Origin: Lachnospiraceae bacterium
Lineage (GTDB): Bacteria; Bacillota; Clostridia; Lachnospirales; Lachnospiraceae
Length of the DNA stretch: 64,000 bases
Direction: 5' to 3'
NCBI GenBank assembly: GCA_024403415.1
Contig: JAKSRY010000010.1
Coordinates: 1 to 64,000, forward strand
Part shown: positions 21,761 to 44,310 of the stretch, piece after piece
Numbering within the stretch: the stretch's first letter is position 1
Layout: each line of letters opens with the position of its first letter
Translations under genes and position numbers: made by a program
Notes under the pieces: model-generated
What the model was told of the DNA's origin: nothing
Seen by the model: the letters and a program-made list of their open reading frames with translations, nothing else
The model's database searches: none

Positions 21761-21921
21761 TTTACGGAGTTATTTAGTTATTCTTATGATTTGCTGAATA
21801 TCCAGCAAAACTCATACATGGATGTATGAGTTAGTGCTCAATTTTGCCTGGATGGCAATTTGAGCACGGTTGCGTAAATTAGGTACTACTTATATGCAAA
21901 TCATTAGATTAACTTAATAAC
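21761..21921 (+). ncRNA. Structured RNA in speA-speE gap, GGA-loop hairpins
   Basis: The 342-base gap before speE holds a compact fold. An outer stem joins GTTATTTAGTTA (21769-21780) to TAACTTAATAAC (21910-21921) with one mismatch. An inner stem joins ATGATTTGC (21786-21794) to GCAAATCAT (21896-21904). Hairpin 1 is AACTCATACA/TGTATGAGTT with loop TGGA (21809-21832). Hairpin 2 is GTGCTCAA..TTGCC/GGCAA..TTGAGCAC with loop TGGAT (21834-21867). TTTACG (21761-21766) may pair with CGTAAA (21873-21878) as a pseudoknot, and TTGCTG/CAGCAA (21791-21808) competes with the inner stem. The first hairpin core TACATGGATGT closely resembles the CsrA-binding consensus. About 90 bases then separate it from the speE start. 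Confidence 0.6.
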
Positions 21922-22013
21922 GTAGTTTGCGAATGTATGAAATATATTATTATAAGCATAAGTATATATTTATTGATGCTATCAATTAACTAATTCATAT
22001 AAGGAGTAAACTT

Positions 22014-39600: not shown

Positions 39601-39864
39601 ATTGTCCTCCAATATCCAAATAAAAAGATGTTTATATATACGTAAAAATTATATCAATTTTTTAAATTTGAGTACATCTATTTCTGAATTATAAAAATGA
39701 AAAATGGTCTTAAAATATAGTGTTTGCCGCAAATTTGCAGCGGAATACATTTATAAATAATGATCAAACATAAAGAAAATATTAAAAGAAAAGATGTATT
39801 CAATTTTTTTCTTGAAAAAATATTAGTAGTAATGATAGAATTGTTGAGTATGGAGGTAGGTTTT

Positions 39865-40260
39865 ATGATTTCAACACGAGGAAGATATGCAATAAGGGTT
39901 ATGCTTGATCTTGCAATTAATCAGGGTGACGGATATGTGCCAATGAAAAATGTTGCAGACAGACAGAATCTTTCACTGAAATATCTCGAACAAATCTTAC
40001 CTATATTATCTAAAAATAAAATGATCGAAGGCCTCCAGGGAAAGGGTGGCGGTTATCGTCTGACAAAAGACCCATCTGAATATGTCATTGGCGACATTTT
40101 ACGACTTACTGAAAAGGATCTTGCCCCTGTCAGCTGCCTTAGTGAAGGTGCCCCCATCTGCGAGAGAAGAGCTGAATGCAGAACCATTGGTTTCTGGGAA
40201 GGGCTGAATGATATAGTTAATGAATACATAGACTCAAAAACTTTGGCTGACCTTATTTAA
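39865..40260 (+). CDS. Rrf2-family transcriptional regulator with three cysteines
   Basis: This 131-residue winged-helix regulator starts MISTRGRYAIRVMLDLA and has the Rrf2 recognition region LSLKYLEQILPILSKNKMIEGLQGKGGGY. Cysteines at 91, 99 and 105 (C-x7-C-x5-C) sit where IscR ligates an iron-sulfur cluster. Sulfur-amino-acid genes with a TAGGTA-type operator follow two genes downstream. It may therefore act like CymR or IscR, sensing cysteine or cluster supply. ATG 39865 lies 8 bases after GGAGG, so the upstream 35-residue in-frame extension is rejected. Confidence 0.88.
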   Translation: MISTRGRYAIRVMLDLAINQGDGYVPMKNVADRQNLSLKYLEQILPILSKNKMIEGLQGKGGGYRLTKDPSEYVIGDILRLTEKDLAPVSCLSEGAPICERRAECRTIGFWEGLNDIVNEYIDSKTLADLI

Positions 40261-41709: not shown

Positions 41710-41739
41710 ATATATTTATAAAAAATATAAATAAACCTA

Positions 41740-41768
41740 TTGACAAAGTAGGTAAATGGGCGTATAAA
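41740..41768 (+). promoter_or_regulatory. Consensus sigma-A promoter of the sulfur operon
   Basis: TTGACA (41740-41745), exactly 17 bases, then TATAAA (41763-41768). An inverted repeat ACCTA (41735-41739) / TAGGT (41749-41753) brackets the -35. This strong promoter overlapped by operator-like sequence suggests repression. Confidence 0.85.
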
Positions 41769-41775
41769 ATAAATA

Positions 41776-41792
41776 TACCTACCAGATAGGTA
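41776..41792. promoter_or_regulatory. TACCTA-n5-TAGGTA inverted repeat (candidate Rrf2 operator)
   Basis: A perfect inverted repeat TACCTA...TAGGTA (41776-41792) lies at the expected transcription start. It shares ACCTA/TAGGT half-sites with the pair around the -35. The Rrf2 gene 1.5 kb upstream is the natural candidate to bind it, by analogy with CymR-type control of cysteine genes. Confidence 0.6.
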
Positions 41793-41810
41793 GTAATTAA
41801 GGAGAGGGAA

Positions 41811-41891
41811 ATGAAAACTATTTTGATTAAAAATGATTTGAAAAAGATTTTATTAAAAATGGAGTTTCGAATGTGTCGATGTTGCTGCTGA
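41811..41891 (+). CDS. Cysteine-rich leader peptide, 26 aa
   Basis: Directly downstream of the promoter, GGAGAGGG is followed by an ATG opening a 26-codon frame. It is lysine-rich and ends in M-C-R-C-C-C before TGA (cysteine codons 22, 24, 25 and 26). Four cysteine codons in the last five positions, just upstream of metY and cysK, strongly suggest that translation of this peptide senses Cys-tRNA supply. I see no terminator hairpin in the 80 bases before metY. Control may therefore act through translation coupling, Rho or mRNA stability rather than classical attenuation. Polycysteine upstream ORFs are known as cysteine-responsive attenuators in mycobacteria. Confidence 0.75.
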   Translation: MKTILIKNDLKKILLKMEFRMCRCCC

Positions 41892-41971
41892 ATATTAAAC
41901 GATTACAAAATAGTAAACATTGATGGATTATTAAACATTACATAAAGACTTAAATTAAAGGAGATTAAATT

Positions 41972-43252
41972 ATGAGCGATTATAGATTTGAAACATTACA
42001 GTTACACGTTGGACAGGAGACACCGGATCCTACTACAGATTCAAGAGCAGTACCTATTTATGCTACTACTTCATATGTTTTTAAGGATTCCGCACAGGCT
42101 GCAGGAAGATTTGGTCTTACAGAAGGCGGTAATATTTATACAAGACTTATGAATCCAACTTCTGATGTATTTGAAAAAAGAATAGCAGCACTTGAAGGCG
42201 GAGCAGGAGCACTTGCAACCGCCTCCGGTTCGGCAGCAATATCTTATGCAATTCAGAATATTGCAATTGCAGGTGATCACGTTGTTGCAAGTAATAGTAT
42301 TTATGGCGGAACACACAATCTTTTAGCTAACACATTAAAGGAACAGGGCATTTCAACAACCTTTGTAGATGCAGCAGATCCAAAGAATTTTGCTAAGGCT
42401 ATACAGCCAAACACAAAACTTATTTTTGCAGAAACTCTTGGAAATCCAAATTCAGATGTTCTTGATATCGAAGCTGTATCAAAGGTGGCACATGAAGCAG
42501 GAATCCCTCTTATTGTAGATAATACATTTGCAACACCATATTATTTGAGGCCAATTGAACATGGCGCTGATGTTGTTGTTCATTCTGCTACTAAATTTAT
42601 AGGTGGTCATGGAACTGTAATGGGTGGAATAATCATTGATTCCGGAAAGTTTGATTGGGAACAGAATGACAAATTCCCCGGAATTACACAGCCAAATCCT
42701 TCATACCACGGCGTTGTATTCTCAAAGGCTGTAGGAAATCTTGCCTATATAACCAAGATTCGTACAACATTGATGAGAGATCAGGGAGCAGTTATTTCTC
42801 CATTCAATTCATTCCTTCTTTTACAGGGAACAGAAACACTTTCATTAAGAGTAGAAAGACATGTCAGCAATGCATTAAAGGTTGTTGATTTCCTGAGCAA
42901 GCATCCTAAGGTTGAAAAGGTAAACCATCCTTCTTTAGCAACAGGAAGAGCTAAAGAATTGTATGATAATTATTTCCCTGAAGGAGCAGCTTCAATATTT
43001 ACATTTGATGTAAAAGGAACTGCAGAAGATGCTAAGAAGTTTACTGAAAGTCTTGAACTTTTCTCACTTCTTGCGAATGTAGCTGATGTTAAATCACTTG
43101 TTATTCATCCTGCTTCAACAACTCATAGCCAACTTGACGAAAAGGAACTTCTTGAAGCCGGCATAAGACCTACAACTGTAAGATTATCAATTGGAACAGA
43201 ACATATTGATGATATTATTGCAGATCTTGAACATGGTTTTGAAGCAATATAA
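41972..43252 (+). CDS. metY: O-acetylhomoserine sulfhydrylase
   Basis: This 426-residue gamma-family PLP enzyme begins YRFETLQLHVGQETPDPTTDSRAVPIY. It carries TRLMNPTSDVFEKRIAALEGG and the PLP-lysine motif SATKFIGGHG (K208), with the long central insertion typical of MetY rather than MetB. It makes homocysteine (or cysteine from O-acetylserine) from sulfide. AGGAG precedes the ATG. The upstream promoter, operator and Cys-rich leader indicate sulfur regulation, and cysK follows. Confidence 0.93.
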   Translation: MSDYRFETLQLHVGQETPDPTTDSRAVPIYATTSYVFKDSAQAAGRFGLTEGGNIYTRLMNPTSDVFEKRIAALEGGAGALATASGSAAISYAIQNIAIAGDHVVASNSIYGGTHNLLANTLKEQGISTTFVDAADPKNFAKAIQPNTKLIFAETLGNPNSDVLDIEAVSKVAHEAGIPLIVDNTFATPYYLRPIEHGADVVVHSATKFIGGHGTVMGGIIIDSGKFDWEQNDKFPGITQPNPSYHGVVFSKAVGNLAYITKIRTTLMRDQGAVISPFNSFLLLQGTETLSLRVERHVSNALKVVDFLSKHPKVEKVNHPSLATGRAKELYDNYFPEGAASIFTFDVKGTAEDAKKFTESLELFSLLANVADVKSLVIHPASTTHSQLDEKELLEAGIRPTTVRLSIGTEHIDDIIADLEHGFEAI

Positions 43253-43295: not shown

Positions 43296-43334
43296 ATTTC
43301 ACAAATCAAACGTTTGTTGTTTGATTTGTGAAAT
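43296..43334 (+). promoter_or_regulatory. Long hairpin between metY and cysK
   Basis: ATTTCACAAATCAAAC (43296-43311) pairs perfectly over 16 bp with 43319-43334 around a 7-base loop. The following ACTTTA is a poor T tract. It may be a weak terminator, or a processing or stability element that sets the metY to cysK ratio. Confidence 0.6.
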
Positions 43335-43371: not shown

Positions 43372-44310
43372 ATGGGAAAAATATATACATCCGCAGAACA
43401 GCTTGTTGGCAACACACCTCTTTTGGAACTGACACATACTGAAAAAATAAATAATCTTAATGCAAAAATATATGCAAAGCTTGAATATTTTAATCCGGCA
43501 GGATCGGTTAAGGACAGAGTTGCTAAATCTATTATTGAAGATGCAGAAGCCTCTGGAAAACTTAAACCGGGTTCAACAATTATTGAACCAACATCCGGAA
43601 ATACAGGTATTGGACTTGCAGCAATAGCAACTGCTAAAGGATATAAAGTTATCATTGTTATGCCAGATACTATGAGTGTTGAGCGAAGAATGCTGATTAA
43701 AGCATATGGTGCTGAACTTGTATTGTCAGAAGGAAGTAAAGGGATGAAAGGCGCTATTGCAAAGGCAGAAGAGATTCTCGCAAATACACCTAATGCTATT
43801 ATAGCAGGCCAGTTTACCAATCCTGCAAATCCCAAGGCGCACAGAGAAACAACAGGACCTGAAATTTATGAGGATCTTGACGGAAATGTAGATGTCTTTA
43901 TAGCAGGTGTTGGAACCGGTGGAACAGTTACCGGAGTCGGTGAATATTTAAAGAGTAAGAAACCTGATGTTAAAGTTATTGCTGTTGAACCGGCTTCTTC
44001 AGCCGTTTTATCAACAGGTGTTGCAGGAGCACATAAGATACAGGGAATCGGTGCGGGGTTTGTTCCTGATGTTCTTAATCAGAATGTATATGATGAAATA
44101 ATTACTGTTGAAAATGAGGATGCTTTTGCAGCCGGCAAGGCTTTTGGAAGAACCGAAGGAGTTCTTGTTGGTATTTCATCGGGCGCAGCATTACATGCAG
44201 CCATTGAAGTAGCAAAAAGACCTGAAAATGAAGGCAAAAACATTGTTGTTCTTCTTCCTGATACAGGAGACAGATATCTTTCTACAACATTATTTGCTGA
44301 TGAAGATTAG
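43372..44310 (+). CDS. cysK: Cysteine synthase A
   Basis: This 312-residue beta-family PLP enzyme makes cysteine from O-acetylserine and sulfide. It has the PLP-lysine in NPAGSVKDR (K47), the TSGNTGIGLA asparagine loop, GTGGTVTGVGEYL, and the C-terminal SSGAAL. ATG 43372 is preferred because GGAGG (43361-43365) is 6 bases upstream; the 17-residue longer frame would start inside the hairpin. It is probably co-transcribed with metY. Confidence 0.95.
   Translation: MGKIYTSAEQLVGNTPLLELTHTEKINNLNAKIYAKLEYFNPAGSVKDRVAKSIIEDAEASGKLKPGSTIIEPTSGNTGIGLAAIATAKGYKVIIVMPDTMSVERRMLIKAYGAELVLSEGSKGMKGAIAKAEEILANTPNAIIAGQFTNPANPKAHRETTGPEIYEDLDGNVDVFIAGVGTGGTVTGVGEYLKSKKPDVKVIAVEPASSAVLSTGVAGAHKIQGIGAGFVPDVLNQNVYDEIITVENEDAFAAGKAFGRTEGVLVGISSGAALHAAIEVAKRPENEGKNIVVLLPDTGDRYLSTTLFADED

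Follow-up and report, generated by a model that had tools for sequence, protein, structure and literature searches.

The metY-cysK locus and its upstream region

The window, the whole stretch of 64,000 nucleotides analysed here from a Lachnospiraceae bacterium (contig JAKSRY010000010.1, positions 1 to 64,000), carries metY followed by cysK, preceded by a predicted promoter with two inverted repeats and a short open reading frame (ORF), with the gene for an Rrf2-family regulator further upstream (Table 1). The ORF was read directly from the window sequence and ends in TGT CGA TGT TGC TGC TGA, so that cysteine fills four of its last five sense codons, its peptide terminates in ..EFRMCRCCC*, and 80 nt separate its stop from the metY ATG. 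The first-pass annotation had described a 26-codon frame with a strong ribosome-binding site (RBS) and four cysteines in five positions before metY and cysK, and the sequence bears this out in full. Two features of an attenuator are present, a Shine-Dalgarno-led short ORF close to the predicted 5' end of the transcript and a run of cognate (cysteine) codons ahead of metY-cysK. The leader peptide itself matched no NCBIfam family. A separate feature lies in the metY-cysK gap, where a 16-bp A+T-rich hairpin (43296-43334) is terminator-like on the minus strand only and might serve in processing or stabilising the mRNA.

Table 1. Features of the metY-cysK locus and its upstream region in the window.
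Feature	Position	Strand	Basis or remark
Rrf2-family regulator, IscR/CymR-like, three-cysteine cluster	39859..40260	+	TIGR00738, 114 bits (cut-off 73)
Rrf2-type operator, half-sites ACCTA/TAGGT, ACCTATTGACAAAGTAGGT	41735..41753	+	Overlaps the -35 box
-35 box TTGACA	41740-41745	+	Within the operator ACCTATTGACAAAGTAGGT
-10 box TATAAA	41763..41768	+	17-nt spacer; putative promoter, read from sequence
Second inverted repeat, operator ACCTACCAGATAGGT	41777..41791	+	Near the predicted transcription start; sequence
Shine-Dalgarno of leader ORF, AAGGAGAGGG	41799..41808	+	Strong; sequence
Leader ORF MKTILIKNDLKKILLKMEFRMCRCCC*, 26 codons	41811..41891	+	Type II cysteine leader; sequence, shuffles, relatives
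Core CGA-ATG (Arg-Met)	41868-41873	+	Common to the leader family
Core plus TGT CGA TGT TGC TGC TGA	41868..41891	+	Putative hungry-codon stall site
A+T-rich spacer, leader to metY	41892..41971	+	Without terminator or convincing RBS-masking pairing
metY Shine-Dalgarno AAAGGAG	41957-41963	+	Within the spacer
metY, O-acetylhomoserine/O-acetylserine sulfhydrylase	41972..43252	+	TIGR01326, 641 bits (cut-off 495); putative regulated gene
cysK, cysteine synthase A	43372..44310	+	TIGR01139, 447 bits (cut-off 351); second gene of predicted operon

The Rrf2-family protein fell short of equivalog status both as IscR (108.6 against 207.55) and as CymR (91.5 against 195), and is a candidate reader of the operators, to both of which an Rrf2 protein would bind. 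In the host genome, a 2.71-Mb draft of 77 contigs that is 87% complete, the operator core CCTATTGACANAGTAGG has three exact sites, all of them at sulfur-type loci: metY, a desulfurase-like gene (L002) and a transporter gene (L151). The reversed pattern, used as a control, matched 5 times with as many as 2 mismatches allowed, a figure not split by mismatch level. The L002 product is a class-V aminotransferase by Pfam and presumably a cysteine desulfurase; its gene starts directly after the operator with no leader, and tacctactagataggta, a repeat resembling the second inverted repeat at metY, lies ahead of it. As the operator is found at all three loci and a leader only at metY and the transporter gene, the two layers are separable.

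A leader family built on a CGA-AUG core

The cysteine run was compared with a background of 312 Shine-Dalgarno-led ORFs of 6-75 aa from both strands of the window, among which only two entries have at least 4 cysteines in 5 residues, both of them nested starts of the leader ORF. Sixty dinucleotide-shuffled windows yielded 1 comparable ORF among 19,564, or approximately 0.017 per window before a position ahead of a cysteine gene is required. Upstream regions of metY were then compared for 114 loci, 5 from the genus (own genome included) and 29 and then 80 from the taxonomic family; these are the best-scoring of 194 family genomes with a close MetY, out of 250, and not a random sample, and 3 of them are short (96-217 bases). 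Shine-Dalgarno-led ORFs with an in-frame CGAATG and nearby cysteine codons number 25 on the coding strand, of which at least one (L031) resembles chance, and 0 on the reverse strand. With 80 further named loci added, a few of them truncated at contig ends, the regions number 194, and arginine is encoded by CGA in 36 of the 40 Arg-Met-plus-Cys ORFs found there, identical peptides being counted once and one type II leader (L076) being missed; in the long frames of the window CGA accounts for 51 of 575 arginine codons. Short ORFs are common in an A+T-rich window, but the rarity of the run in shuffles, the strand asymmetry, the CGA usage and the survival of the cysteine block in the nearest relative (L209) make a chance ORF extremely improbable, and on the shuffle control this reading was rejected.

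The same codon bias recurs across 58 distinct leaders (L110, L114, L129 and L031 left out), where CGA encodes 57 of 59 arginines before methionine, 19 of 30 before cysteine and 13 of 137 elsewhere; the first figure is inflated because 30 of the 65 leaders (58 without duplicates) were retrieved by a pattern with an obligatory CGA, and 36/40 is the less biased value. CGA is a slowly decoded codon (I:A wobble), and it might be guessed that a slow CGA sensitises the next decoding step and so explains the bias. A search of relatives for cysteine-run ORFs ahead of sulfur genes, which the first-pass annotation had proposed, has recovered a family. On sequence comparison, the window leader is a member of a leader family that is widespread in the Clostridia, apparently has not been described before and likely senses cysteine starvation; its hallmark in the leaders compared is a near-invariant CGA-AUG (Arg-Met) codon pair with adjacent cysteine codons.

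Leaders in which the cysteine codons lie 5' of Arg-Met, here called type I, have the peptide pattern CCRM..SRA..MAG. A search of 299 family genomes for TGYCGAATGNNNNNYTCYCRGRC gave 31 sites in 28 of them, against 2 sites for the reversed-pattern control. In these leaders CTCCCGGGC starts 5 nt past Arg-Met and pairs with a downstream GCCCGGGAG, which also begins the terminator stem; a T run follows the stem in most sites, L145, L171 and L173 having no clear one. In the alignment of 32 sequences (L108, L161, L166 and L168 left out of 36 segments) 94.1% of cells in the antiterminator helix are paired and both partners differ in 22 cells, where shuffles give 4.6 and none of 500 reaches the observed number; sliding the helix partner by 1-3 columns brings pairing below 49%. 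Type I has on these alignments the make-up of a textbook transcription attenuator, and its spacing suggests that a ribosome stalled on the second cysteine codon would leave the antiterminator strand just free. Within the genus a type I covariance model matched 5 of 6 genomes (none in G005), with 13 matches, two of them weak (E 0.7-0.9); across the class it matched 11 of 291 genomes from six families, own genome included, and within that draw no other genome of the host's family.

Of 45 type I-like sites, 40 precede genes for sulfur enzymes or cystine/methionine-type transporters: metY (18), other Cys/Met PLP enzymes (3), cysK (2), a binding protein like that of L151 (9), an NlpA-type binding protein (6) and an ABC permease (2). 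The remaining 5 are ahead of nothing recognised. These 45 were counted from 59 loci (L144-L202), the rest being duplicates, missed by the core expression or bearing fewer than 2 cysteines, and downstream genes were sorted by identity with Pfam families as support. In a congener, L180 (G003:C5), the order is metY-cysK, a second cysteine attenuator and an L151-type binding protein. At L164, L172 and L144 a type I leader stands ahead of a putative cyclase (PF04199) or of genes not recognised as sulfur-related, Pfam giving no name to the protein downstream of L172; these genes perhaps represent new cysteine-linked functions.

The host genome carries a complete attenuator of its own. At L151 (G000:C18) the exact operator core CCTATTGACATAGTAGG is followed by a leader, MKNQNNITSSCMCMCCCRMLFSQAKMTGCMAHLSCTKR, which includes ..SCMCMCCCRMLFSQAKMTG.., and by an antiterminator and terminator downstream; the terminator folds at -14.8 kcal/mol and competes with a fold of the antiterminator stretch at -37.9. 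The gene behind it encodes a binding protein (PF00497 and PF03180) for which cystine or methionine is the probable substrate. The earlier suggestion that a Firmicute could pair a cysteine leader with an Rrf2-type operator to form a two-layer sensor gains strong comparative support here, L151 lying under the operator core of metY.

Type II leaders, the class of the window copy, have their cysteine codons 3' of Arg-Met (RMC..). A terminator is present in 12 of 16 type I metY leaders and absent from 18 of 20 of type II, in a count that left out L110, L129, L031 and the AGG row of L114 and whose 20 type II rows include L278, probably a chance match. The type II seed TTYGGACGAATGTGY occurs in 14 of 299 genomes (control 1), and only 6 of these 14 loci are metY leaders, the other 8 reading as other frames. 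The peptide LVRxN[FY]RFG, or nearly so, precedes Arg-Met in 13 loci: 11 of type II, the cysteine-less L021 and L266 from Oscillibacter, a hybrid in which LLRSNFRCGRM is followed by the type I PYSRAKNMAG and a terminator. Over 78 pairs from these 13 loci the motif peptide has a pN/pS of 0.29, a value biased low because the loci were picked for showing the motif; codons vary while residues hold, which suggests selection on the peptide. The metY leaders of L021 and L238 keep the core and end in ..RM* (CGA ATG TGA) with no cysteine codon after it, an ending that suggests either loss or a different signal.

The nearest relative found for the window leader is L209, whose MetY is 80% identical and whose leader, ..LLIRMCSRCRCCSVN, ends 79 nt upstream of metY; TGTCGATGTTGC is the longest identical run between the two aligned leaders. 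Conservation of the cysteine codons, on which the first-pass annotation had staked its proposal, holds in part: L209 keeps the TGT-CGA-TGT-TGC block and the run is kept in the family, but not at every orthologous site, since congeners are of type I or weak and no leader of this kind is seen at most close MetY relatives. Of five congeners, three have type I at metY, L004 has a weak leader with few cysteines and G001 has no close metY. In the MetY tree the window protein is placed among Ruminococcus-type sequences (a clade of 24 rows, SH-aLRT 100), apart from those of its congeners, which suggests that the gene was probably replaced horizontally; 4 rows of that clade have type II leaders, 2 have leaders ending ..RM* and 18 bear no label, the labels being incomplete (L046 is unlabelled). 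Elsewhere, the leader peptide of L251, from a record named Lachnospiraceae, is identical to that of L157, from a genome of the host's family, and a Treponema metagenome record (L249) has FEKLVRQNFRYGRMRPCC ahead of metY with CGC replacing CGA. In the MetY tree L249 clusters with a genome from the host's family, which points to transfer or a mis-binned contig.

Proposed coupling of the leader to metY-cysK expression

The favoured reading, with a probability of roughly 0.7, is that this ORF serves metY-cysK as a regulatory leader for cysteine: a stalling uORF, and a terminator-less (type II) member of the family, that would raise expression when Cys-tRNA is scarce. Transcription would start at the Rrf2-type promoter directly upstream, a ribosome short of Cys-tRNA would stall on the cysteine codons after CGA-AUG, and the stall would increase metY-cysK expression. 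How the last two steps are joined is the weakest link of the scheme. No terminator-like site was found in 41811-41971, nor by a separate scan from the core to metY, and scans and folding together gave no intrinsic terminator or antiterminator after the window leader, which folds no better than its shuffles (z -0.9). The first-pass annotation had held that the lack of a hairpin between leader and metY excludes classical attenuation at this locus, and the two scans agree with it. Because convincing masking of the metY RBS is lacking as well, any coupling step is guesswork, and protection of the transcript or an open downstream region is favoured over a terminator decision: most likely, a stalled ribosome near the 5' end would shield the transcript or hold the region beyond it open. 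Coupling at the level of mRNA stability or translation is the best reading.

In translational attenuation of the mycobacterial kind, the cysteine-codon region would mask the metY RBS and a stalled ribosome would free it. Among 23 type II-like loci (L079, L266 and L046 left out), pairing between core and metY start beats 95% of single-base shuffles in 8, and the strongest pairings, in L138 and L246 (-20.8 kcal/mol), in L238 (-19.7) and in L239 (-16.6), suggest that translational control may hold at those four; in L246 a modelled stall opens the RBS from 0.17 to 0.55. Over the 23 loci, however, own pairs average -11.5 against -10.3 for swapped ones, which is little better. The window has a faint signal, its 0.56 expected pairs exceeding the 0.17 of shuffles, 5% of which score as high, but its duplex of -7.1 kcal/mol falls short of the mean for swapped partners (-9.7) and is outdone by 84% of shuffles, and under the modelled stall openness drops from 0.41 to 0.33. 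Neither duplex energy nor modelled stall supports masking at the window, where this mechanism is improbable.

Rho-dependent termination within the spacer, blocked by a stalled ribosome, requires no hairpin and had been hinted at in the first-pass annotation. C-poor spacers are atypical of rut sites, and this spacer holds 6 C and 9 G in 81 nt; the hint gathered no positive evidence and Rho control is highly improbable here.

A further alternative is that the leader is a vestige, an ancestral attenuator that lost its terminator and antiterminator and whose cysteine codons linger without function. No coupling structure was found at the window, and a Ruminococcus-type metY unlike that of congeners raises the possibility that the DNA upstream of it was recently pieced together. 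Against this, the Shine-Dalgarno, the start codon, CGA-AUG and all four cysteine codons are intact in A+T-rich DNA that would be expected to erode, L209 retains the same block, and terminator-less leaders recur as a class, which together leave a vestige unlikely.

Finally, type II leaders could be cysteine-starvation arrest peptides. On this view a slow CGA and the conserved nascent chain LVRxN[FY]RFGRM would sensitise the ribosome to the point where even a small drop in Cys-tRNA arrests it on the following cysteine codon, giving operon control free of a terminator; the window copy would then be a stripped-down member in which only CGA-AUG and a longer cysteine run survive. The window leader lacks LVRxN[FY]RFG and with it the conserved nascent peptide of TnaC- or Erm-type arrest, and the idea is a tentative one, rather doubtful as it stands. 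If true, such leaders would combine codon-based attenuation with nascent-chain arrest.

Relation to known systems

Compared with trp/his-type attenuators, type I leaders, one of them in the host genome, share the Shine-Dalgarno-led leader, tandem cognate codons, a covarying antiterminator and mostly a terminator; the window copy differs in having no terminator, in its cognate residue, cysteine, and in the added near-invariant CGA-AUG. Closer in appearance are the actinobacterial cysteine leaders without terminators, for which Rho-dependent termination has been proposed (PMC1262725), and the polycysteine short ORFs of mycobacteria (Canestrari 2020, via PMC13236596 and PMC9094748), which, as far as the accessible passages go, likewise have a cysteine run by the stop, ahead of cysteine genes and with no terminator. 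Unlike those, the window ORF is not leaderless and has a strong Shine-Dalgarno, belongs to another phylum, has the CGA-AUG core and gives no support for RBS masking. The uORFC-8-2 motif ahead of cysS in the Rhodobacterales (PMC8632094) resembles type I, in the part of that paper available, in its tandem cysteine codons and intrinsic terminator, and differs in phylum and gene, and from the window copy in having a terminator. Leader peptides where T-boxes are the rule are represented by a histidine leader ahead of hisS/hisZ in bacilli (PMC2965389) and a leucine-rich leader mentioned for S. aureus (PMC13009471); they serve other amino acids, and the passages at hand contain no cysteine core.

The cysteine T-boxes of clostridia (PMC2940859, in excerpt) also couple cysK and cystine uptake to the charging of Cys-tRNA, but there the tRNA binds the RNA directly, and none was found at these leader loci. 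Rfam searches of the window leader, of 17 loci and of 20 loci found no T-box or other element at the leader, the lone match at the 17 and 20 loci being a c-di-GMP-I riboswitch in L266, downstream of metY. The sole Rfam match in the window at gathering score is a TwoAYGGAY RNA (21762-21928, plus strand, 123 bits). The host genome has two T-boxes, one below cut-off, and the genes after them are presumably trpD- and trpE-like.

Amino-acid starvation sensing in the Firmicutes is thought to be mostly T-box-based. No cysteine leader peptide in the Clostridia appears in the titles and abstract starts of the open-licence papers that the searches listed, and subscription papers may describe one. The CGA-AUG core and shared peptide of the terminator-free subclass raise the question of whether Cys-tRNA alone is sensed or whether the leader sequence also tunes the stall. 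It seems that in many Clostridia, a good share of which come from samples of gut and rumen, cysteine synthesis and uptake of the cystine/methionine type are under the control of leader peptides, and this control would be coupled with an Rrf2-type switch on the same promoter.
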